A DNA stretch of 46,114 nt from Bacteroidales bacterium (GTDB taxonomy: Bacteria; Bacteroidota; Bacteroidia; Bacteroidales; VadinHA17): assembly GCA_025455395.1 (NCBI GenBank), contig JALOMO010000044.1, positions 1 through 46,114 on the forward strand, read 5' to 3'. How positions within the stretch are numbered: position 1 is the first letter of the stretch; every line of letters begins with the position of its first letter. The translations under genes were made by a program, and so were the position numbers. Positions 2,439 through 21,810 of this stretch are shown one piece after another. Under the pieces are notes generated by a model that made no database searches, had not been told where the DNA came from, and saw nothing but the letters and a program-made list of their open reading frames with translations.

Positions 2439-3299
2439 TCAGTTTAGTATACGTGTTACCGCATTGGCTGTTATGATCAGTTCTCTGAGAGAAGCGGAGT
2501 CACCCGCTTCAATATATTTCTTAAACAGGTTCATCTTTTCAATATAAGTATCAATTGCTTCAATTATTGACTTTGCGTTGCCAGTGAAGATAGGCGCCCA
2601 GGTTTCGGCTTTGCTCTTTGAGAGCCTGACAGTGCTTTCGAACCCGCCAGCGGCAAGGGATAGAATATTCTTTTCGTCCTTTTCCTTTTCCAGGACACAC
2701 AGGGCAAGGGCGAAGGATGTTATATGGGATATATGCGAGACATAGGCTACATGAATATCATGTTCTGTTGAGTTCATAAACTGAAGCTTCATGTGAAGGG
2801 ACTGAAACAGTGCGGTGATGAGATGGAGAGCATCATTATCGCTACGTTCCGGATCACATATTATCGCCACCTTGTCGGTGAAGAGCGAGTCGATTGCAGC
2901 TGCCGGCCCCGAATATTCGGTACCAGCCATCGGATGGGCTGAGACATATCTTCCCCTTGCCGGATGATGGGCTACCGTGGCAGCTATATCTGCCTTTGTT
3001 GAACCCATGTCAGTGACCACTTTGTCTGTGCCGGCGATCATATTGAGTACCTGGGGCAGCAATATGCAATTGGTGTCGACGGGAGTACAAAGCAGAGTGA
3101 TATCTGCATTTTTAACAGCCTCCTCAAGCGGCAGAAATTCATCAGCGAGTCCGCGGTACATAGATATGGTACAATGCTGCTGATTGTTATCCACTCCAAT
3201 AATCTTACCCGTAAAGCCATTTGATCTCAATCCCTTTGCCAGGGAACCCCCGATCAAACCAAGTCCAACAATGGATATTGTAACTTTCATTTTCGTCAT
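2439..3299 (-). CDS. tyrA: prephenate dehydrogenase
   Basis: N-terminal Rossmann ISIVGLGLIGGSLAKGLR and AHPMAGTEYSGP motif; overlaps upstream aminotransferase by 4 nt. Confidence 0.92.
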   Translation of the reverse strand: MTKMKVTISIVGLGLIGGSLAKGLRSNGFTGKIIGVDNNQQHCTISMYRGLADEFLPLEEAVKNADITLLCTPVDTNCILLPQVLNMIAGTDKVVTDMGSTKADIAATVAHHPARGRYVSAHPMAGTEYSGPAAAIDSLFTDKVAIICDPERSDNDALHLITALFQSLHMKLQFMNSTEHDIHVAYVSHISHITSFALALCVLEKEKDEKNILSLAAGGFESTVRLSKSKAETWAPIFTGNAKSIIEAIDTYIEKMNLFKKYIEAGDSASLRELIITANAVTRILN

Positions 3300-4477
3300 C
3301 TTGATAGGTTTAACATGTGCTTTATCCGGTCATTTGCCTCATTAATAACAGCTTCTTTGGAACAGAGAGATATTCTTACATAGTTGTTGCCATTACTGCC
3401 GAAGACAGAGCCCGGAGTGATAAAAACATAAGCTTCATTCAGAATCTTTTCTGCAAGTTCATCTCCATCCTTCCAGTTGGCAGGTACTCTCCCCCAGAGA
3501 AAAAGTCCTGACTGCTCCGGGTCATAAGAACAGCCGAGCGTGCTCATAAGCTCCTCTGCAGCCCTTCTCCTGTCGCGGTAAATTTTATTCAGTTCATTGT
3601 ACCATGTCTTCGGGGCTGAGAGCGCTGCGACGGCTGCTGCCTGGAGAGGCTGAAACATCCCCGAATCCATATTGCTTTTAACTTTCAGGATGGCATTGAT
3701 AAAATCAGCGCGACCGGCGACCATACCTATCCTCCAGCCGGCCATATTATGTGATTTGCTCAGTGAGTTAAGCTCAAGAGCAACATCCCTGGCCCCGTCA
3801 GCAGAGAATATGCTTAAGGGGTTATCATTCAGGATAAAGCTGTATGGATTATCATTGCAGAGCAGAATACCGTGCCTGCCCGCAAACGAGACAAGATTGC
3901 TGAAGATCTCCTGTGATGCTTTTCTGCCTGTGGGCATATGAGGGTAGTTTATCCACATTATTTTTACATGGTTTAACCCTGCATCTTCAATCTCTTTCAA
4001 GTCAGGAACCCAGCCGTTTTCCCGGGTCAGATTATAATATCTTACAATACCCCCGGCAAGTTTTGTTGCTGCCTCATATGTAGGGTATCCCGGATTGGGA
4101 ATAAGAACTTCATCGCCAGGATCAAGGAAAGCCATGCTGATATGCATGATCCCCTCTTTGGAGCCCATCAGCGGTAGTATCTCATCAACCGGGTTCAGGT
4201 CAGTATCGAACCACTTGTTGTACCACTGAGCAAATGCAGTGCGCAGGCCGGGGATACCGATATAGCTCTGGTAACCATGGTTGGCAGGATTTAAGGAGTT
4301 CTGATGAAGAACCTGAATAACATCCCCGGAGGGAGAAAGATCGGGGCTTCCGATTCCGAGGCTGATGACATTGATTCCGTTTTGCCTCATGGCAGCTATC
4401 TGCTTGAGTTTACTGGAGAAATAGTACTCCTGTACAAGGTTAGCTCGTGCTGCGGGTTTAATTGTAACTTGTTTCAT
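3296..4477 (-). CDS. class I/II pyridoxal-phosphate aminotransferase (probable aromatic/aspartate-type)
   Basis: Full-length 393 aa, NPGYPTYEAATKLAGG, SLSKSHNMAGWRIG PLP-lysine motif; first structural gene of aromatic operon. Confidence 0.9.
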   Translation of the reverse strand: MKQVTIKPAARANLVQEYYFSSKLKQIAAMRQNGINVISLGIGSPDLSPSGDVIQVLHQNSLNPANHGYQSYIGIPGLRTAFAQWYNKWFDTDLNPVDEILPLMGSKEGIMHISMAFLDPGDEVLIPNPGYPTYEAATKLAGGIVRYYNLTRENGWVPDLKEIEDAGLNHVKIMWINYPHMPTGRKASQEIFSNLVSFAGRHGILLCNDNPYSFILNDNPLSIFSADGARDVALELNSLSKSHNMAGWRIGMVAGRADFINAILKVKSNMDSGMFQPLQAAAVAALSAPKTWYNELNKIYRDRRRAAEELMSTLGCSYDPEQSGLFLWGRVPANWKDGDELAEKILNEAYVFITPGSVFGSNGNNYVRISLCSKEAVINEANDRIKHMLNLSR

Positions 4478-4480
4478 ATC

Positions 4481-4509
4481 AAAAAAAAAGTCCCGTTCTC
4501 GCGGGACCT
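4481..4509 (-). terminator. intrinsic terminator (attenuator) in leader of aromatic amino acid operon
   Basis: On the minus strand: AGGTCCCG-CGAGAA-CGGGACTTTTTTTTT; 6 bp GC-rich stem (8 with A-U/G-U pairs) plus 9 consecutive T, ending 3 nt before the ATG at 4477. Confidence 0.85.
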
Positions 4510-4548
4510 CTCTGTTTATATTTCTGTATTATTTAATACACTATACAA

Positions 4549-4623
4549 CTATTCAGTCCCTCTTCCTTTCTGATAATAGAAAAAGTTAAACGAATAGGTA
4601 TATTTTGCAGTTTTGCCTGTCAT
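4549..4623 (-). CDS. Phe/Tyr-rich attenuator leader peptide MTGKTAKYTYSFNFFYYQKGRGTE
   Basis: 24-codon minus-strand ORF from ATG at 4623 to TAG ending at 4549; 4 Tyr + 3 Phe within 11 codons; followed by terminator hairpin and U-tract immediately before the aminotransferase start. Below the 60-aa cutoff of the supplied ORF track. Confidence 0.8.
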   Translation of the reverse strand: MTGKTAKYTYSFNFFYYQKGRGTE

Positions 4624-4680
4624 ATCAGGTGCTAAAGTACAAAAAAACTCATACGTTGATTCCCCGGAGACAAATTAAAA

Positions 4681-4688
4681 TAATTTTG
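4681..4688 (+). promoter_or_regulatory. Bacteroidota -7 promoter element upstream of CYTH gene
   Basis: TAATTTTG matches TAnnTTTG, 32 nt before the ATG at 4720; no convincing -33 TTTG. Confidence 0.4.
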
Positions 4689-4719
4689 TATACGGTGTTA
4701 AAGTAAAACCTCCAGCAAT

Positions 4720-5190
4720 ATGGCAATAGAAATTGAGAGAAAATTCCTGGTGACAGGGGATTTCAGGAATGAGGTCATTGAATCAGTAAATATCAGACAA
4801 GGTTACCTGGCGTCTGCACCGGAGCGTACTGTAAGAGTAAGGATAAAGGGCAACAGGGGATTTCTGACTGTGAAGGGAAAGACCGATGCCTCAGGTATAG
4901 GGAGGTTTGAATGGGAAAAGGAGATTGACAATGATGAGGCTGAGGATCTGTTGAACCTTTGTGAGCCCGGTATCATTGAGAAGACAAGGCACATAATTTA
5001 TGCGGGTAGCCATACATTTGAGGTGGACGAGTTTCGGGGGGAAAACAGCGGATTGATTATTGCTGAGGTCGAGCTCACATCTGCCGGGGAGGCTTTTGAT
5101 AAACCGTCATGGCTTGGACCTGAGGTTACCCATGACCATCGATACTACAACGCATGGTTGTCAAAGAATCCTTTTCGTCTCTGGAAATAG
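4720..5190 (+). CDS. CYTH domain-containing protein (triphosphate tunnel metalloenzyme)
   Basis: N-terminal MAIEIERKFLV signature, RVRIKGNRGFLTVKGK, FEWEKEI, FEVDEF motifs. Confidence 0.93.
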   Translation: MAIEIERKFLVTGDFRNEVIESVNIRQGYLASAPERTVRVRIKGNRGFLTVKGKTDASGIGRFEWEKEIDNDEAEDLLNLCEPGIIEKTRHIIYAGSHTFEVDEFRGENSGLIIAEVELTSAGEAFDKPSWLGPEVTHDHRYYNAWLSKNPFRLWK

Positions 5191-5269
5191 GAAATTCTTC
5201 CGGCACAGGGTGCAACTTGTAAAGGAAAGATAAATTGCTACATTTATAAAAAAACTCCGGACCCTTAAA

Positions 5270-5800
5270 ATGAAATTGAGGAAGGCAGATATAATGAAGT
5301 GGGTCATCGGATTCCTGCTGGTTGCTGTTGCCGTCACTATCGCATCATTAACGGTAGGCCGTGACATCTACTACGGGTCACGTGAAAACGGGTTATGGTC
5401 CTTCGCAATAGTAAATGCCGCGGGATATCTTTTTTTCCTATTCATGCCCGTGGAGCTGGCCTTCATCTACTATCTGTCGGGAGACATCAGCATCTGGGCT
5501 CTAAACTTCGTTGCTCTTGGCACAGCCATCCTGTCACAGTCAATCGATTATCTTATAGGATACATTCTCAGTGATAAAATCATTGACAGTCTTATCGGTC
5601 GCAGACGGTATGAAAAGGCAGAGGACAGGATAAGGAAGTACGGAAACATAGCAATACTGGTATTCAATGCCCTGCCTCTCTCCTCGCCTGTTATATCCCT
5701 TGCGGCAGGTATGCTCCGTCACAGGATACTCGATGCGTTAATCTGGACTGTTGCAGGGCTGGTCATGAAATACCTGCTACTTACAATAGTGTTTTCTTAG
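5270..5800 (+). CDS. small integral membrane protein, possibly DedA/VTT-like
   Basis: 176 aa, several hydrophobic segments, YLIGYILSDK...RKYGNIAILVFNALPLSSPVISLAAGMLR resembles VTT/DedA family; weak assignment. Confidence 0.6.
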   Translation: MKLRKADIMKWVIGFLLVAVAVTIASLTVGRDIYYGSRENGLWSFAIVNAAGYLFFLFMPVELAFIYYLSGDISIWALNFVALGTAILSQSIDYLIGYILSDKIIDSLIGRRRYEKAEDRIRKYGNIAILVFNALPLSSPVISLAAGMLRHRILDALIWTVAGLVMKYLLLTIVFS

Positions 5801-10388: not shown

Positions 10389-11798
10389 TCAGACTTTTCT
10401 GAGCTTCCATTTTCCCCTTCTGAATACCAGCCATGCTGTAAAAGTAAGCAGCGTCTCGCTGAAGACAATCGCATAGTATACACCGAGCTGATCCAGACCA
10501 AGCGGTAATGCCAGAAGCCATGCGAGAGGTATCTCAACCATCCAGAACACGAATAGGAATATTTTTGTGGGCGTGAAGGTATCGCCTGCTCCGTTAATAG
10601 CGCCTATCAATACCATCCCGAGAGCATAGGAGATGAAGCCGGCGCTTATAATACGGAGTGCAGGTATGCCTTCAGAGATGACGGCCTGATCATCAATAAA
10701 GAACCTGATGAAGGGTTCGGGCCAGAGAACCAGTATAAGACCAATTAGCCCCATCAGTACAGAGTTTACCCAGCCTACATTCCATGCAGCTTTTTCGGCT
10801 CTCTCAGGCTTACCGGCCCCAAGGTTCTGACCCACAAGGGTTGATGAAGCATTGCTTATCCCTGATGAGGGAAGAAGGGCAAAGATCACAACACGGATGG
10901 CAATAGTATAGCCGGCAACAGCAGCGCTTCCGAACTCAGAGACAATTCTCATCATGAATATCCAGCTGGTGGTGCCGATGAGATTCTGTCCAATGCCTCC
11001 AAGTGAAAGCCTGAAAAGCTTGGCAATGATTACAGGGTCAGGAACGATATGTCGTAAACGGAGCTTAACTCTCTTATGTCCGCGGAAGAGTATTATGAAC
11101 TGCCATACTACGGCGACACCTCTGCCTGTTGCTGTTGCGACAGCAGCACCTTTTATTCCCAATTCCGGGAAAGGCCCCCACCCGAAGATGAGGCAGGGAT
11201 CAAGAATGATATTGAGTATATTTCCCAGCCAGAGTACTTTCATTGCTGTGGCGGCATCACCTGAGCTTCTGAATACACTGTTGATGATAAAAAGGAGCAT
11301 AATGACGGTGTTTGAGCCGAGCATTATGGAAGTATATCCTGATAGGTCGCGTGCCATTGCCGGTGAGGCACCCATCAGTGAGAGTATCTCACCTGCAAAA
11401 AGTGACCCCGCAATGGCCAACGGTGCTGAAACAAGTATCCCTGCTACGATTGCCTGAAAAGCTGTGCGTGATGCCTGCTCCGGGTCCTTCTCACCAATCC
11501 TTCTTGAGACCAGCGAGGTGGTGGCAGTGGCAAGCCCCATGCCAATTGCATAAATGATGGTTACTACTGATTCGGTGAGGCCAACCGTTGCAACCGCCTC
11601 AGCTCCCAGACGAGAGACGAAAAAGATGTCAACCACGGCAAACACCGATTCCATAAGCATCTCAAGGACCATAGGAACCGAGAGGAGCATAATTGCCCTC
11701 CGGAGTGGTATCTCGGTAAAGTCCTGATCACTTCCCTTTATTGATGCCAGAAGATCCCGGAAAAACTCCCTGATGCTATTTGTCTTTATTGTCGACAC
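10389..11798 (-). CDS. MATE family efflux transporter
   Basis: RAIMLLSVPMVLEMLMESVFAVVDIFFVSRLGAEAVATVGLTESV signature, 12 TM pattern. Confidence 0.93.
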   Translation of the reverse strand: MSTIKTNSIREFFRDLLASIKGSDQDFTEIPLRRAIMLLSVPMVLEMLMESVFAVVDIFFVSRLGAEAVATVGLTESVVTIIYAIGMGLATATTSLVSRRIGEKDPEQASRTAFQAIVAGILVSAPLAIAGSLFAGEILSLMGASPAMARDLSGYTSIMLGSNTVIMLLFIINSVFRSSGDAATAMKVLWLGNILNIILDPCLIFGWGPFPELGIKGAAVATATGRGVAVVWQFIILFRGHKRVKLRLRHIVPDPVIIAKLFRLSLGGIGQNLIGTTSWIFMMRIVSEFGSAAVAGYTIAIRVVIFALLPSSGISNASSTLVGQNLGAGKPERAEKAAWNVGWVNSVLMGLIGLILVLWPEPFIRFFIDDQAVISEGIPALRIISAGFISYALGMVLIGAINGAGDTFTPTKIFLFVFWMVEIPLAWLLALPLGLDQLGVYYAIVFSETLLTFTAWLVFRRGKWKLRKV

Positions 11799-12952
11799 TA
11801 ATCGCTCTTTTCACTTCTTAACCCGCTGACAATGATGTTAAGCAGTTTACCCTCCGGGTCTTCAGCATATTCCCAGAACATCACTCCGGCCAGGCCATTG
11901 GCTTTGACCCACTTCATCTTCTCAGCGAGAGAGATATCATCGTCATAAGAAATAAAAACAGAATCTCTTTCATTCCATAGAAAAGGAGAACATGCAGATG
12001 AATCATATATTCTGACGAAAGCTGTATCAGCTATGATCTTAATTATATCCGCATTAGAAATAGATTGGCCTGTAGTCCTTGCTTCACGGTAAAGCCCGTT
12101 ATTGACAGGTTCCGTGCCACGCCAGATACGTCCATAGAATGGAACACCGATATTGAGTTTTGAAGGGCTGACACCTGCTTCGAGATGCATCCGGACGCTT
12201 CTCTCAGTTGCATCGCCGTGTGGTGAATCCCATTCAGACAAGAGAAGGTTTGAGTGATGACCTGTCTGTGAGGTCAGTCCGTTGTGCAGGTCGTAACTCA
12301 TAATATTTATAAAATCAAGATATTGCGAGGCTTCTCCGAGTCTTGTATTAGCTATGTATGCCGAGTCGCCTCCTGTTGCAATTGTCAGCAGATAAGGTTC
12401 TTTCCTTCCCTGTTTCCAGGCAAGAGAATCAATATGTTCTCTGACAGCTTTCAGCAGAAGTGTGAAGTTGTCAATATCTTCAGGTCTGTGTATGTTACCT
12501 GCCCCTGCCTGGTTGGGATACTCCCAGTCAAGGTCAACCCCGTCAACCCCGGTAGAAATAATGAAATCAACAGTGCTTTCTGCAAAGCGATTACGGGAGG
12601 AGTCAGTGAGAGCAGCATCGGAAAAATTACCTGACCATCCCCATCCACCCACTGATACAAGAACCTTCAGGTAAGGATTAACTTCCTTAAGCGAGTTGAG
12701 TTTCCTGATATCGTCAATGTTCATCTCGGTATCATCTATCCTTGTTGTGTCGAACATTACCCTTCCGTTTATAATATTGGCAAATGCATAATTAACATGT
12801 GTAAGCCGTGCAGCATCTATTTTTGATACGTCGAATCCTCTGAAACCGGCCACGTATCCCACAACCATGAAATCCTTTTCTTCTGATGGGCTGCCACATG
12901 ATGTGAGAATAGCAAACAGGAGAGACAGAAGGATTGAGCAACTATTTTTCAT
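11798..12952 (-). CDS. glycoside hydrolase family 18 (chitinase-like) lipoprotein
   Basis: Lipobox LLSLLFAILTSC; catalytic DGVDLDWEYP (DxxDxDxE). Confidence 0.92.
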   Translation of the reverse strand: MKNSCSILLSLLFAILTSCGSPSEEKDFMVVGYVAGFRGFDVSKIDAARLTHVNYAFANIINGRVMFDTTRIDDTEMNIDDIRKLNSLKEVNPYLKVLVSVGGWGWSGNFSDAALTDSSRNRFAESTVDFIISTGVDGVDLDWEYPNQAGAGNIHRPEDIDNFTLLLKAVREHIDSLAWKQGRKEPYLLTIATGGDSAYIANTRLGEASQYLDFINIMSYDLHNGLTSQTGHHSNLLLSEWDSPHGDATERSVRMHLEAGVSPSKLNIGVPFYGRIWRGTEPVNNGLYREARTTGQSISNADIIKIIADTAFVRIYDSSACSPFLWNERDSVFISYDDDISLAEKMKWVKANGLAGVMFWEYAEDPEGKLLNIIVSGLRSEKSD

Positions 12953-14278: not shown

Positions 14279-14532
14279 TTTAAGTTTGCGCCTCAATATC
14301 GGGGCATCAATTTTATGCTCATTCACTGACCGGTGAATAACTCAGTTTGAGATGAAGCATATTATTGATAATCAGATATTAATATATGACTTGCATGTGT
14401 TAATATCTTTTGCTCCGGAGGAATACATCAGATATATCATTATTTATCTTAGACGAAAATTTTATAACATTTATTAATAACCAATATCAGTAATTAAAAA
14501 CCAGAAAAAAGGTAATTTTCATTTACCGAAGT

Positions 14533-15777
14533 ATGAACGCTAACAGGAAAGAGGCTACGGTTGCTCATGTTGAGAACCGCCTCATGGGCTGCTCCTCGGA
14601 AGAGGAGCCTGGCGCGGGTACCATGATCTTCCCGCAGATCGGATCCCACGATCGTTTAGTTAGCAACCGGAGTTCGGAATTCATACGCCGCTACTTCCCC
14701 CTAACAAATGTTGATTCATGGAATGACTGGAGATGGCAGTTACGTAACTCCTTTACTTCAGCTGAGGCGTTATCTCGTGTCATGAAACTGACAGAAGATG
14801 AGACACACGCCCTCAACAGTCTGAAGAACAGGTTGCCCCTCAGGGTCACTCCGTACTATCTCTCACTCATCTACGATGCAGCACCTGAGAGTGCTTTGCG
14901 CCGGACAATGATTCCGTCATTAAGCGAACTGACAATCACTGATGCTGAGAAGGCTGACCCGCTCGATGAGATGGGAAGCAGTCCTGTACCTGGTATTGTT
15001 CACCGTTATCCTGACAGGGCGCTGTTCACTGTGACACAGTTTTGCTCATCGTATTGCAGGTATTGCACCAGGTCACATTCAGTTGGCAAGCTCGGACATC
15101 TCACCAAGGGTGAGTGGGAAAGAGCCTTCAAGTACCTCTCAGAACACACTGAGGTGCGTGACGTAATTATCAGCGGTGGTGACCCCCTGACGATGAATGA
15201 TGATAAGCTTGAGTACCTGCTCTCGAGTCTGAGGGCTATAAAACATATCGAGATTCTCAGGATCGGGACAAAAGTTCCGGTGGTACTGCCTCAGCGCATA
15301 ACGCCGCAGCTGGTGGCCATGCTCCGTAAATATCATCCACTCTTCATGAGTCTTCATTTCACACATCCTGACGAGATCACGCCTGAGACGGCAAAGGCCT
15401 GCGAAATGCTTGCCGATGGCGGAATGCCACTTGGCAGCCAGACTGTGCTTCTCAGCGGTATCAATGATGATCCGGTGGTGATGAAGAGCCTCATGCAGCA
15501 GCTTCTTAAGATCAGGGTCAGACCTTATTATCTATATCAGTGCGACCTTATACCTGGTTCAAGCCATTTCAGAACTTCGATTGAGAAGGGCATTGAGATA
15601 ATTGAAAACCTGAGAGGACATACAAGCGGTTATGCTGTACCACAATTTGTCGTTGACGCCCCCGGCGGAGGCGGTAAAATTCCCGTGCTTCCTAATTATG
15701 TGGTTGAAAGCGGGCCTGAAAAATGGGTTCTCAGAAACTATAAGAGGCGGCAATACACATACCCCAATAAAAAGTAA
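14533..15777 (+). CDS. KamA family radical SAM protein (lysine 2,3-aminomutase-like)
   Basis: CSSYCRYCTRSHSVG (CxxxCxxC), ISGGDPL, YQCDLIPGSSHFRT, GHTSGYAVPQFVVDAPGGGGKIPVLPNYV. Confidence 0.92.
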   Translation: MNANRKEATVAHVENRLMGCSSEEEPGAGTMIFPQIGSHDRLVSNRSSEFIRRYFPLTNVDSWNDWRWQLRNSFTSAEALSRVMKLTEDETHALNSLKNRLPLRVTPYYLSLIYDAAPESALRRTMIPSLSELTITDAEKADPLDEMGSSPVPGIVHRYPDRALFTVTQFCSSYCRYCTRSHSVGKLGHLTKGEWERAFKYLSEHTEVRDVIISGGDPLTMNDDKLEYLLSSLRAIKHIEILRIGTKVPVVLPQRITPQLVAMLRKYHPLFMSLHFTHPDEITPETAKACEMLADGGMPLGSQTVLLSGINDDPVVMKSLMQQLLKIRVRPYYLYQCDLIPGSSHFRTSIEKGIEIIENLRGHTSGYAVPQFVVDAPGGGGKIPVLPNYVVESGPEKWVLRNYKRRQYTYPNKK

Positions 15778-15784
15778 TTAAGGT

Positions 15785-16759
15785 ATGACAATCGGGCTTA
15801 CGTATGACCTTCGCTCGTGGTACCTCGAGCGCGGTTATACCATGGAGGAGACGGCTGAGTTTGACAAAGAAGAGACTGTGGTTGCCCTCGAAGAGGTGCT
15901 TGCCAGGCTGGGATACCAGACTGAGCGCATTGGCAACATCTTTGAGCTTGTAATTAAGCTTGCTGCAGGTCTCAGATGGGATATGGTATTCAACATTACG
16001 GAAGGTCTATATGGTGACGGACGTGAGTCTGTTGTTCCTGCTTTGCTTGACCAGTACAGGATTCCCTACGTGTTCAGCGGACCGGTCGTTATGGGTATAT
16101 CCCTTAATAAGTACTATGCCAGGCTTGTGGCTGAAGCAGCCGGAGTACCTGTGAGCCCCGGAATACTTATCTCATCAGCTGATGACATTCACAACGCATC
16201 ATCACTTACATACCCGCTCTTTGTAAAACCTGTTGCGGAAGGTACCGGCAAAGGTATTACTGAGAGAAGTATAGTCAGAGACGCTTCTTCTCTTGCAGTA
16301 CTGACGACTGAGCTTCTTGAAAGGTTTAAGCAACCTGTTCTGGTTGAAGAATATCTTCCGGGAAGGGAGTTTACCGTTGGTATTACAGGCAGCGGAGCAG
16401 ATGCGAGTGTTGTCGGTGGAATGGAAGTAATATGCAAGGATAACCTGCCCTATTCTGTAGAAGTGAAGGAGAATTACCAGGACATTGTTCAATACCGGAC
16501 AATTGATGAGAGTTACAGGGATGAATGCAACGCTGTCGCACTTGCAGCCTGGCGTGCACTCAGTGCTGTTGACGCCGGCCGGGTAGATCTGAGAGCTGAC
16601 AGAAAGGGAAAAATTTGTTTTATCGAGGCCAACCCGCTGGCGGGTCTGAACCCGGTACACTCTGATCTTCCCATCCTGTCACGAATGAATGGCGTCGGAT
16701 TCGATTCACTGCTTGAAATGATAATGAACTCGGCTAAAAGACGTTATGGATTAAAATAA
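15785..16759 (+). CDS. ATP-grasp D-Ala-D-Ala ligase-like protein (1)
   Basis: PLFVKPVAEGTGKGI, VLVEEYLPGREFTVGI, VDLRADRKGKICFIEANPLAGLNPVHSDLP. Confidence 0.88.
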   Translation: MTIGLTYDLRSWYLERGYTMEETAEFDKEETVVALEEVLARLGYQTERIGNIFELVIKLAAGLRWDMVFNITEGLYGDGRESVVPALLDQYRIPYVFSGPVVMGISLNKYYARLVAEAAGVPVSPGILISSADDIHNASSLTYPLFVKPVAEGTGKGITERSIVRDASSLAVLTTELLERFKQPVLVEEYLPGREFTVGITGSGADASVVGGMEVICKDNLPYSVEVKENYQDIVQYRTIDESYRDECNAVALAAWRALSAVDAGRVDLRADRKGKICFIEANPLAGLNPVHSDLPILSRMNGVGFDSLLEMIMNSAKRRYGLK

Positions 16760-16761
16760 GA

Positions 16762-17724
16762 ATGAAAAAGTGCCTTATCATATATAACGAGCCGTCGCCT
16801 GACGCCCTGCCTGATGAGCTTGACGTGCTCGACCAGGTGAATTTTATTGGAGATACCCTGCAGAAGCTGGGTTATGAGGTATCTCGCCAGGGTATCACTG
16901 ATAATTTCTTTCATGAGATATCCTGTCTTGAAAGCGGTAAATATGAATTTATATTCAATCTTGTTGAATCAGTTGGAAAGAAAGCCGAGATACTTTATTT
17001 TATCCCGGCACTGCTCAACATGAATCATATTCCATATACTGGATGTCCGCTTGAGGCAACTTTCATCACCGGAAGCAAGGTGCTTGCCAGAAGAATGATG
17101 AAATCGGGTGGCATCCCTGTTGCAGGCGGATACAAAGTTTCTGAGGCTGACAAACTTACACCGGGAAAGAAATATATACTTAAGCCGGTTTGGGAGGATG
17201 GCTCACTTGGGATTACAGAAGAATCCGTTTTCATCTTTGACGGTACCGTTCCTGAGATAGTAAGGGAAAAGAATGACAGTCACTGGTTTATAGAAGAGTT
17301 CATTGACGGCAGAGAATTTAACGTAAGCGTTATGTCAGGTCCTTCCGGGCCTGAGATACTCCCCCCTGCCGAGATGCTTTTTCACGATTACCCTGGTCAC
17401 CTGCCGCGTATTGTCAGTTATAATGCGAAATGGGTGGAGGGGACCTTCCAGTATGAGAACAGCAGGCGAAACTTTCCAGGAGACCTCAGTGAGAAATTGA
17501 TGAATAATATCACTGCTGCTGTGCTGGGATGCTGGCATACATTCGGGCTGAAAGGATATGCCCGTGTCGATATGCGGGTGGATGACGATGAGAATGTTTT
17601 TGTCCTGGAAGCAAATGCCAATCCATGCATATCACCTGACAGTGGTTTTATCTCGGCCGGGTTACATGCAGGCTATACTCATGCGGAGATTATAAACCGT
17701 ATCATCAATGATCTTAATAAATAG
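16762..17724 (+). CDS. ATP-grasp D-Ala-D-Ala ligase-like protein (2)
   Basis: KKYILKPVWEDGSLGI, WFIEEFIDGREFNVSV, ARVDMRVDDDENVFVLEANANPCISPDSGF. Confidence 0.87.
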   Translation: MKKCLIIYNEPSPDALPDELDVLDQVNFIGDTLQKLGYEVSRQGITDNFFHEISCLESGKYEFIFNLVESVGKKAEILYFIPALLNMNHIPYTGCPLEATFITGSKVLARRMMKSGGIPVAGGYKVSEADKLTPGKKYILKPVWEDGSLGITEESVFIFDGTVPEIVREKNDSHWFIEEFIDGREFNVSVMSGPSGPEILPPAEMLFHDYPGHLPRIVSYNAKWVEGTFQYENSRRNFPGDLSEKLMNNITAAVLGCWHTFGLKGYARVDMRVDDDENVFVLEANANPCISPDSGFISAGLHAGYTHAEIINRIINDLNK

Positions 17725-17728
17725 AACA

Positions 17729-18208
17729 ATGGCCGAAATTTCATTCGAGATTACCGCTGATGACCGTCCCGTTCTTGAGGCAATACTGAAATCTTCAGGA
17801 TATTTTTATGATTTTGAGGTTGAAGTGGCTCTCTCGCTTGCAGATGAGACAATCGAAAAAGGACAGGAGAAGAGCGGTTATTACTGGATACGTCTTATTG
17901 AAGAGGGAAAAGTAATTGGCTTTGCCAATTTCGGCCTCAACCCATCCTCTGTTCATTCTTACGACCTGTACTGGATTGCTATTATGGAGGAGCACAGGCA
18001 AAAGCGTTACGGTTCTCTGATCCTTAAGAATGCAGAGGAGAGGATAAAATCTCTTGGTGGTAAAATTGTATGGATCGAGACATCCGGACGTCCGCTATAT
18101 GAACCGACAAGAGGATTCTATCTGAGGAATGGCTATGAACTTGAGGCTACATTACGTGATTTTTATGGCCCGGGTGATGCCAAACTTGTTTACAGGAAAG
18201 AATTATGA
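17729..18208 (+). CDS. GNAT family N-acetyltransferase
   Basis: IGFANFGLNP...LYWIAIMEEHRQKRYGSLILKNAEERIKSLGGKIVWIETS...GFYLRNGYE; start probably at MAEISFE (17729), ORF extends to 17708. Confidence 0.88.
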   Translation: MAEISFEITADDRPVLEAILKSSGYFYDFEVEVALSLADETIEKGQEKSGYYWIRLIEEGKVIGFANFGLNPSSVHSYDLYWIAIMEEHRQKRYGSLILKNAEERIKSLGGKIVWIETSGRPLYEPTRGFYLRNGYELEATLRDFYGPGDAKLVYRKEL

Positions 18209-18573
18209 AGGGTGTCTGGACAATAGTTCTCCTCATATTTTCCAATTCTTTCATGACTGTAGCCTGGTACGGACATCTGAAGTACAAGAATGTTTCCAAA
18301 TACGAGGCTCTGGGACTTACAGCCATTGTACTCATAAGCTGGGGAATTGCTCTTTTTGAGTATTTCTTTCAGGTCCCGGCCAACAGATTAGGCTACAGGG
18401 GCACAGGTGGCCCTTTTTCGCTCATTGAGCTTAAGCTGATCCAGGAGGTGATCTCAATTTCGGTCTTTATACTCTTTGCCCTGATTGTTTTCCGCACCGA
18501 ACAGTTCAGACTGAATCACCTGTTGGCATTTATGTGCATCCTTGGGGCCATTTATTTCACCTTCACAAAATAG
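18205..18573 (+). CDS. DMT-superfamily DUF486 small membrane protein
   Basis: MTVAWYGHLK...ISWGIALFEYFFQVPANRLGY...FSLIELKLIQEVISISVF; overlaps GNAT by 4 nt. Confidence 0.88.
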   Translation: MKGVWTIVLLIFSNSFMTVAWYGHLKYKNVSKYEALGLTAIVLISWGIALFEYFFQVPANRLGYRGTGGPFSLIELKLIQEVISISVFILFALIVFRTEQFRLNHLLAFMCILGAIYFTFTK

Positions 18574-19352: not shown

Positions 19353-20522
19353 TCATGAATGAAGGCCTCTCATGATCACTCTTTCAATTTCCTCCCACTG
19401 TTCAAAGCCAATTGACATCCTTATCATCCCCGGTTCAGGGTATTTGGCTCCCCATACAGCCTCCACCGGCATCAGTATGGTATGAGAATCGCCCAGTGTC
19501 GGGATAAGCCTAATCTCAGGATATACCGCAGCAATGAACCTGTCACGCCTGGCCCTCTTCTCTTCAGCATTATCGCCCTTCAGGTCAAAGGTGACCATTG
19601 CGCCATAGCCTTTGCCACCTGTCAGCTCACTTGCCGCCGCGTGAGTAGGGTGTGTAGAAAGACCGGGATAGAGCACACTGCTGACTTCAGATGAAGAGCT
19701 GAGCAGTGACGCTACACCGGAAGCATTATGACACTGTCGTGTGAATCGCAGAGCGAACGAAGCCAACTGGGTCTGAAGCCTGTATGCGTCGTCAGGAGAG
19801 AGCATATGACCAACAAACTTACGATATTCAATTGCGCTCTTCATCAGTGCAGTGTCGTTACCGCAGATGACACCGGCCGTAAGATTACCGTGACCGGAGA
19901 GATATTTTGTTGCGCTGTGAATGACAATGTCAGCACCGTCATCAAGAGGTTTCCACAACAGAGGAGTGGCAAATGTATTGTCAACCAGCACATAAGCTCC
20001 GTAACGCTTTGCAAGGGCTATGATCCTCCTCGCCTCTGCCACCATCAGCAGCGGATTGGAGATGGTCTCGAAGTATAGTATCTCAGGACGTGTTCCAGCC
20101 AGCGTCCTCTCAAGAAGGTCATAATCATAGTTGTTGCCTGAAGGCCTGAAGAAGTCAATATTAAGGCCCCTTCTCTTTTCGAGAACACTGCTGATATAAG
20201 ACAGAGTACCTCCGTATATCTCCGAGAAGAACAACCATCTGCTCTTTTTTCCAGCCTCCTGGAAGATTGACAAGGCTATATCTATTGCAGACATCCCGGA
20301 CTGAGCAAGGAGGGCCCATGCCGAACCTTCCGTAGCCATGACAGCCTCCTCGGCCGAGACTACTGTAGGGTTACGGTAACGCGAATAAATATAAAGCTCG
20401 GGCTCTCTCTCGTGATCAATCTCGGAGGCAAAGGCATCAGATGTTGTACCTGCTGACGGAAGCTCAAAGCCAGCATCACGATATACCGGCGTCCTGGCGC
20501 TGTTTATTTCTCTCTTTTTCAT
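19353..20522 (-). CDS. trans-sulfuration family PLP enzyme (cystathionine gamma-synthase / methionine gamma-lyase-like)
   Basis: YSRYRNPTVVSAEEAVMATEG, VDNTFATPLLWKPLDDGADIVIHSATKYLSGHGN; start likely MKKREINSARTPVY at 20522 rather than 20636. Confidence 0.9.
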   Translation of the reverse strand: MKKREINSARTPVYRDAGFELPSAGTTSDAFASEIDHEREPELYIYSRYRNPTVVSAEEAVMATEGSAWALLAQSGMSAIDIALSIFQEAGKKSRWLFFSEIYGGTLSYISSVLEKRRGLNIDFFRPSGNNYDYDLLERTLAGTRPEILYFETISNPLLMVAEARRIIALAKRYGAYVLVDNTFATPLLWKPLDDGADIVIHSATKYLSGHGNLTAGVICGNDTALMKSAIEYRKFVGHMLSPDDAYRLQTQLASFALRFTRQCHNASGVASLLSSSSEVSSVLYPGLSTHPTHAAASELTGGKGYGAMVTFDLKGDNAEEKRARRDRFIAAVYPEIRLIPTLGDSHTILMPVEAVWGAKYPEPGMIRMSIGFEQWEEIERVIMRGLHS

Positions 20523-21810
20523 ATAAGTCGTTGAAATCTTCCTGTATGGTTTCCTTGATATTAAGTGGTTTAAAATCATCGTAAAAAAGAACTCTGTCGG
20601 CAGCAATCCCCGTAAAAAAGAGTATAGCTGCAACAATACCAGTTAACTGGCTTTCAGGATATAAAAGCATAAATATAAGTGGAATGGAAAGTGCCCTGTA
20701 ATAATAGAGAAAACGGATCAATGGTTCTTTATCAGATGATCTGTATCTCATCACCACAGACAGTGCTGACAGTAATGAGAAGAGAAGAAAAAGTGTATTG
20801 GGAACAATAAACCATGAGGTAATATAAATTGCTGAAAAGAATGCCTGCCCGGTATGGAGCTTGAGTTTGTATGAACGGTCGGCCGCAAAATAGACCATGT
20901 CAACCGAGATGAGGGTTAGTAATGACACGGATGCCATCAGAACCGGGTGGATTATCCCGGGCTTGAACCAGTCAGCAAAGGCCATTAATGACAACAGTGT
21001 CACTAGTGCTATCTCGCGGCTGAGGGGTGATGAGAAGATGTTGAAGGTTGACCTCCATGCTCTTAACGGAAGTCGGAGGTGGGCAAAAGAGGCTATAATG
21101 GCGCCGGCCAAAAGCAAGGCTGGCATGACACCACCCGGCACATCTGATTTAAGCGCAGAAGCTATTAACAGCGAAGAGGCTGATATGACCAGCAGGGAAA
21201 AGAGGATCAGGCTCCACTCTTTCAGGACACTTTTCCCGGTAACAGCCGTCAGCAGTACCTCCTCATCCTCTTCAGCAGGTATTATCACAGGGCTGCTGTT
21301 ATCGCTGATGCCCTTAAGCACCACTGATGGACCCATTCCTGTCTCAGGGAACCATGTCACTCCTGCTGTGGGAAAATCATCGAGTGTCACCATCCTGAGT
21401 GCTCCGGTAGGGCATGCTGATACACAAGCCGTTTCCACACCTTCTGAGACTCTCTTGAAGCAATACTGACACTTTTCAATGTAGCCTTTTGTTTCATTGA
21501 TCCTGGGTGCATCATAGGGACACCTCCAGGTGCAATAGCGGCATCCCATGCATTTCTCATTATCATAGAGGATCACCCCGGAAATGTCTCTTGAATATGC
21601 ATTTACAGGGCATCCTTCAAGACATTCAGGTTTCTCACAGTGATTACATGCCAGAGAGAGATTGACCACGCTGAAGGGTGTAATTGCTTCATTGTTCCAG
21701 CTGAAGACGGTCCTTGTCCCGGGCTGTAGGCCATTCTCTAGGGTACAGGCTGCGTTGCAGGCGTTGCAATGGACACACAGTGCTGCATCAAATTCAAATC
21801 CTCTTCTCAT
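20476..21810 (-). CDS. DmsB-DmsC-type fusion: 4x[4Fe-4S] ferredoxin subunit plus integral membrane anchor
   Basis: Four Cys clusters (CVHCNACNAAC, CNHCEKPECLEGCP, CMGCRYCTWRCP, CQYC...CVSACP) followed by ~8 hydrophobic segments. Confidence 0.88.
   Translation of the reverse strand: MRRGFEFDAALCVHCNACNAACTLENGLQPGTRTVFSWNNEAITPFSVVNLSLACNHCEKPECLEGCPVNAYSRDISGVILYDNEKCMGCRYCTWRCPYDAPRINETKGYIEKCQYCFKRVSEGVETACVSACPTGALRMVTLDDFPTAGVTWFPETGMGPSVVLKGISDNSSPVIIPAEEDEEVLLTAVTGKSVLKEWSLILFSLLVISASSLLIASALKSDVPGGVMPALLLAGAIIASFAHLRLPLRAWRSTFNIFSSPLSREIALVTLLSLMAFADWFKPGIIHPVLMASVSLLTLISVDMVYFAADRSYKLKLHTGQAFFSAIYITSWFIVPNTLFLLFSLLSALSVVMRYRSSDKEPLIRFLYYYRALSIPLIFMLLYPESQLTGIVAAILFFTGIAADRVLFYDDFKPLNIKETIQEDFNDLYEKERNKQRQDAGIS

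Follow-up and report, generated by a model that had tools for sequence, protein, structure and literature searches.

What would a bacterium make with a KamA-family aminomutase, two ATP-grasp ligases, and an acetyltransferase that are encoded side by side? The question is raised by a 46,114-nucleotide stretch of DNA from a Bacteroidales bacterium (assembly GCA_025455395.1, contig JALOMO010000044.1; hereafter the window), which is the whole of one contig (C63) in a 3.47-Mb genome that is 89% complete, and whose nearest relatives are Bacteroidales metagenome-assembled genomes (MAGs). A sequence-only reading of this stretch had pointed to five co-directional genes, namely KamA, two D-Ala-D-Ala ligase (Ddl)-like ATP-grasp enzymes (here ligase A and ligase B), a GNAT N-acetyltransferase, and a small DUF486 membrane protein, and had proposed that they form an uncharacterized pathway to a beta-amino acid peptide. 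Searches of open reading frames (ORFs) and protein families recovered all five on the + strand, with the claimed families and spacing (gaps of 7 nt between KamA and ligase A and of 2 nt between ligases A and B, and a 4-nt overlap of GNAT and DUF486; Table 1). The enzyme families are familiar; their combination has no known product. The answer put forward here, with confidence that is evenly balanced, is that the cassette would direct the biosynthesis of a small N-acetylated peptide containing beta-lysine, probably a compatible solute. Four observations underlie it: the genes are conserved as a set, the residues of KamA suit lysine, both ligases keep their catalytic residues yet are distinct from Ddl, and the acetyltransferase has a physical tie to ligase B.

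Ligase A was sought in 84,980 species, which gave 80 loci; the genes around it were then called with protein-specific profiles. Of the 68 loci with enough upstream sequence, 63 have KamA next to ligase A; ligase B lies next to ligase A in 58 of 72 testable loci, and the corresponding count for GNAT is 47 of 61. In a second sample, consisting of genomes around Desulfopila, ligase A was encoded by 51 of 198 genomes (26%), and among the 20 loci retrieved from these it was adjoined by KamA in 19 and by ligase B in 19. A Bacteroidota-wide sample yielded a distant ligase A (34-39% identity) in 30 genomes besides that of the window; 29 of these 30 encode KamA, against 100 of 296 genomes overall (Fisher p ~2e-14). 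Most of the latter ligase A loci have the permuted order ligase A-ligase B-GNAT-KamA, with ORFs that touch or are closely spaced and with unrelated flanks. Ligase B and GNAT are fused in a single ORF in L038, L045, L051, L057, and L080, and a broken form of this fusion occurs in L078. Because the same genes recur in other phyla, their clustering is not attributed to chance, and on the evidence of the genomes KamA, ligase A, ligase B, and GNAT are a real, ancient module that spans at least 15 phyla. That the gene set survived a change of order is strong evidence of a functional link among the four genes. Conservation of the neighborhood was the main check suggested by the sequence-only reading, and its outcome supports that proposal very strongly.

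The KamA of the window, the only one in its genome, scores 477 bits against the AblA equivalog TIGR03820 (cut-off 525) and 251 bits against the EpmB equivalog TIGR03821 (cut-off 369), and matches the C. subterminale structure 2a5h with an E-value of 1.6e-127. KamA proteins of the cassette have an N-terminal extension of ~60 amino acids and a shortened C-terminal region, and the radical S-adenosylmethionine (SAM) motif CX3CX2C and the pyridoxal phosphate (PLP) lysine K337 are present in 100% of them. Residues R134, D293, and D330 are kept in 67 of 67 cassette KamAs as well as in 15 of 15 from permuted loci, which likewise retain the Fe-S cysteines and K337; D293 and D330 bind the side-chain amine of lysine in 2a5h. 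Position 293 is discriminating, being Gln in 8 of 8 members of a sister clade without the cassette and Lys in two other KamAs. A phylogeny built from 104 KamAs places 63 cassette members, drawn from 16 phylum-level groups, in a single clade (support of 97 in the SH-like approximate likelihood ratio test, SH-aLRT), KamAs of the permuted order in their own clade (99), and the AblA of AblA/AblB pairs in a third (100). It should be noted that 4 of the 67 rows labelled as cassette KamAs (L035, L049, L079, and L080) fall outside the main clade, some of these four being long branches. Given the lysine-binding residues and the clade, conversion of L-lysine to beta-lysine by the cassette KamA is strongly supported as a prediction, so that the aminomutase proposed earlier to make a beta-amino acid now looks specific for lysine. 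Two groups of KamA stand apart at position 293: eight Bacteroidota loci without the cassette (L169-L172 and L174-L177) have Gln for Asp at position 293 and probably act on another amino acid, and two cassette loci carry a second, very divergent KamA-like gene (~30% identity; L015 302-2143 and L066 12568-14382) with Lys at this position.

AlphaFold2 (AF2) models of ligases A and B each have a predicted local distance difference test score (pLDDT) of 95, and a fold search with both returned only Ddl-type folds as nearest PDB entries, with no hint of a substrate. The Ddl catalytic residues K97, K144, E180, E187, K215, R255, D257, E270, and N272 are all kept in 47 of 47 ligase A sequences, and the same nine ATP/Mg residues are kept in 43 ligase B rows, save for E270D in 2 (in the E. 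coli DdlB row used for comparison, residues 73-302 agree with the PDB alignment). The fold and the catalytic residues are thus common to these ligases and to Ddl and Van ligases; by contrast, acceptor-side residues in the cassette ligases are changed, and these changes are fixed across phyla. In ligase A, the equivalent of L282 is Asp in 46 of 47 sequences, Y216 is mostly replaced by Glu, and G276 and S281 are kept, whereas in ligase B Y216 is replaced by Trp (W224), G276 by Cys (C289), and L282 by Gly (G295), each in 43 of 43. Family scores for the two ligases, 109 and 72 bits, lie far below the Ddl cut-off of 245.65, while a separate true Ddl is encoded on another contig of the same genome (C103); Ddl over cut-off is likewise present in 32 of 36 cassette genomes. 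A housekeeping Ddl identity is therefore rejected for both: judged by these scores, ligases A and B are not housekeeping Ddl. A cationic partner, beta-lysine for instance, would be well matched to the acidic residues of ligase A. A third Ddl-like ATP-grasp paralog, with 29% identity to ligase B, is conserved in the genus (4684-5700, +, on contig C82 of the window's own genome, L112; 5093-6091, +, in genome G006, L187). In G006 this paralog and a complete AblB-AblA pair converge, and at a further locus (L190, 6047-7000) a gene resembling ligase B lies near AblA; with such genes so placed, ATP-grasp enzymes may accompany AblAB as well.

For the GNAT, a profile of cassette members matches PDB entry 2r7h with an E-value of 1.3e-54, the next match being at 6e-8; 2r7h is a structural-genomics entry from Desulfovibrio alaskensis G20, labelled 'putative D-alanine N-acetyltransferase'. 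One ligase B-GNAT fusion weakly matches streptothricin acetyltransferase (E-value 1e-4), an enzyme that acts on a beta-lysine group. At 11 loci an additional protein of ~580 amino acids accompanies the cassette; it couples a GNAT domain at its N-terminus to a deacetylase domain at its C-terminus (Table 1), and the window's own genome has none. The closest solved relatives of its deacetylase domain are acetylpolyamine amidohydrolases, and a product with an acetylated lysine-type amine is consistent with a family that removes N-acetyl groups from short amino-alkyl chains.

A pathway can be proposed from these observations. KamA would isomerize L-lysine to beta-lysine. Ligase A, using ATP, would activate a carboxylate as an acyl phosphate and make the first amide bond, with beta-lysine as one partner; this assignment is inferred from the tight linkage to KamA and from the fixed acidic residue close to where the acceptor subsite lies in Ddl. 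Ligase B would then make a second amide or join an acetylated partner, and GNAT, fused to ligase B in some lineages, would N-acetylate an amine of the intermediate or of the product, which would be an N-acetylated beta-lysine di- or tripeptide. Where a lineage has the GNAT-deacetylase fusion, this protein would take the acetyl group off again or recycle it. The role of a stress-protecting small molecule is a best guess and the least certain step. There is a precedent in part: in the synthesis of N-acetylglutaminylglutamine amide (NAGGN), a GNAT joined to a peptide-forming ligase produces an N-acetylated dipeptide solute. The NAGGN ligase is of another family and no aminomutase takes part, whereas the cassette has two separate ligases, and there is no asnO-type amidotransferase among the cassette genes (the family was not searched for genome-wide). 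A bolder form of the proposal, to which somewhat less than even confidence is given, is that a very widespread and undescribed class of N-acetylated beta-lysine peptides, made by two Ddl-like ligases and turned over by a partner resembling acetylpolyamine amidohydrolases, acts inside the cell as a major solute or protectant, and does so across 15 phyla or more of uncultured and anaerobic bacteria.

Several observations weigh against a beta-lysine peptide solute. Some loci hold only KamA and ligase A and others hold the ligases and GNAT without an adjacent KamA (L034, L041, L042, L049, L052, L065, and L069-L071); as gene content varies, the number of steps is not fixed and product structures may vary. 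Many cassette members are on MAG contigs. The flanks are mostly diverse and offer no pointer to osmotic stress, and no regulatory Rfam element, riboswitches included, matched at the window's cassette or at nine other cassette loci; control by a riboswitch was therefore set aside, the sole riboswitch match (L040) being ~4 kb from the cassette and on the other strand.

The competing explanation that survives best accepts the same chemistry with a product that is not a solute. The product would instead be secreted or stay bound to the cell, for instance as a peptide for signalling or antimicrobial action or as a compound that binds metal, or it would decorate lipid, polysaccharide, or the cell wall. 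This is considered unlikely, albeit with some claim to attention. Antibiotics such as streptothricin and capreomycin contain beta-lysine or other beta-amino acids, and in these, as in viomycin, a lysine 2,3-aminomutase feeds peptide bond formation; phosphate-uptake genes are also found beside the cassette in a few lineages (L027, L032, L040, L055, L056, L022, and L023). However, the cassette contains Ddl-like ligases instead of nonribosomal peptide synthetase (NRPS) modules, there is no gene for a dedicated exporter, a glycosyltransferase, a carrier protein, or self-resistance that lineages have in common, and a compact gene set with the prevalence seen in the Desulfopila-area sample fits primary metabolism better than a niche secondary metabolite. 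A second alternative, that the product is an amide or peptide tag on a protein or other macromolecule, is improbable. Its model would be the beta-lysylation of EF-P by EpmB and EpmA, which shares with the cassette a KamA-family enzyme that makes beta-lysine; EpmB is among the KamA homologs, and ATP-grasp enzymes modify proteins too. The KamA of the window is nevertheless far nearer to AblA than to EpmB by the scores given above, no EpmA-like gene is present among the cassette ORFs, Ddl-type ligases act on small molecules, and no target protein recurs in the neighborhood.

It is very improbable, and disfavored, that the cassette is a version of the AblA/AblB pathway, known from methanogens and some bacteria, in which KamA and GNAT would make N-epsilon-acetyl-beta-lysine and the ligases would be irrelevant passengers. 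The two systems have in common a KamA-type lysine 2,3-aminomutase with lysine-binding residues, a GNAT, and a likely acetylated beta-lysine product, and the sequence-only reading had drawn this comparison. The cassette differs in its two conserved ATP-grasp ligases, which are the most constant partners of KamA, in a KamA of another clade whose C-terminus is shorter than that of the AblA in AblA/AblB pairs, and in its GNAT. A search with TIGR03827 (AblB) rejected AblB as the identity of that GNAT; it found nothing in the window's own genome and exceeded the cut-off in only 4 of the 36 cassette genomes searched; where its location was inspected (G006, G337, and G355), AblB sits beside a different KamA. 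Since G006, which belongs to the genus of the window, and G337 each encode both the cassette and a complete AblA-AblB pair, the genomes indicate that the cassette is neither a degenerate form of AblAB nor that system under another name, and the pathway is better treated as distinct from the pairs to which it had been likened. Least credible of all, and likewise disfavored, is chance adjacency of a KamA for lysine fermentation, which the enzyme initiates in some anaerobes, to Ddl-type cell-wall enzymes whose fold the ligases do share, given a separate true Ddl in the genome, fixed pocket changes in the ligases, linkage in 16 phylum-level groups and in permuted order, and, as a weak point, no detection of lysine 5,6-aminomutase alpha (PF09043) in 36 cassette genomes, the control set having given no match either.

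A literature search found no description of KamA combined with two ligases and a GNAT, in line with the sequence-only reading, which knew of no characterized system with this composition; the search did not cover the survey of ATP-grasp amidoligase neighborhoods by Iyer et al. (2009), which may list the combination as a prediction, and the cassette genes are not mentioned in a D. vulgaris fitness paper. That the gene set occurs in roughly one in four of the genomes sampled from one phylum, and in many other phyla, while having no assigned product suggests that a piece of widely shared bacterial metabolism is missing. Should the product prove to be a new beta-amino acid peptide solute, it would reveal how salt or other stress is withstood by many anaerobes and sediment bacteria. 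Many database entries called D-alanine ligase or lysine 2,3-aminomutase would then be corrected, and two ligases that accept beta-amino acids would be added to the toolbox of enzymology. The cassette could be tested directly in cultured sulfate reducers. One cultured, non-pathogenic bacterium that carries it is Desulfopila sp. IMCC35006 (L060).

Table 1. Cassette features in the window and positions of the GNAT-deacetylase fusion at other loci.
Feature	Position	Strand	Families and remarks
Upstream intergenic region (254 nt), presumed operon promoter/5' leader	14279..14532	+	Patches conserved in L003-L005; no Rfam family
KamA-family radical SAM/PLP aminomutase, predicted lysine 2,3-aminomutase	14533..15777	+	TIGR03820, PF12544, PF04055
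Ligase A, D-Ala-D-Ala-ligase-like ATP-grasp	15785..16759	+	PF07478; partner most tightly linked to KamA
Ligase B, second divergent Ddl-like ATP-grasp ligase	16762..17724	+	PF07478; fused to GNAT in some lineages
GNAT N-acetyltransferase	17729..18208	+	PF00583
DUF486/DMT_6 small membrane protein	18205..18573	+	PF04342, E 2e-40; accessory, not core
GNAT-deacetylase fusion between KamA and ligase A	3206-4945 (L014)		L013, L014, L018, L019
GNAT-deacetylase fusion between ligase B and GNAT			L020, L054
GNAT-deacetylase fusion after GNAT	10450-12192 (L060)		L036, L059, L060, L062
GNAT-deacetylase fusion before ligase A			L078

The GNAT ORF as listed (start 17708) overlaps ligase B by 17 nt, as the sequence-only reading had allowed. 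Because relatives (e.g., L003) begin at the position equivalent to the ATG at 17729, this later start is more likely; it would give a protein of 159 amino acids and a 4-nt gap after ligase B, and the overlap would disappear. The DMT-type membrane protein, earlier proposed to transport the product, lies outside the recurrent set. DUF486, a single-copy gene in its genome, is next to the cassette solely in the window's genus and in the closest Bacteroidales loci, and several members of that genus lack it (L083, L084, L093, and L096-L098); it was therefore rejected as a core transporter and is regarded as a genus-level accessory.

Among flanking genes, those for phosphate uptake that lie directly beside the cassette in a few unrelated lineages encode Pst/PhoU (L027 and L032), DUF47/PHO4 (L040, L055, and L056), or porin O/P (L022 and L023). 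A general link to phosphate was rejected, as few lineages are involved and the remaining cassette-adjacent ABC ORFs are not Pst. A polyphosphate-kinase neighbor, suspected from ORF lengths, was also rejected, the ORFs in question being peptidase M3, PNPase, SpoIIE, and others. Elsewhere in the window, a cystathionine-gamma-synthase-like ORF (19353-20636, -) read from its listed TTG (20636) overlaps the upstream ferredoxin-type ORF (20476-21810, -) by 161 nt; its true start is probably internal, and relatives such as L002 begin later (MKKREINSARTPVYRDAG).

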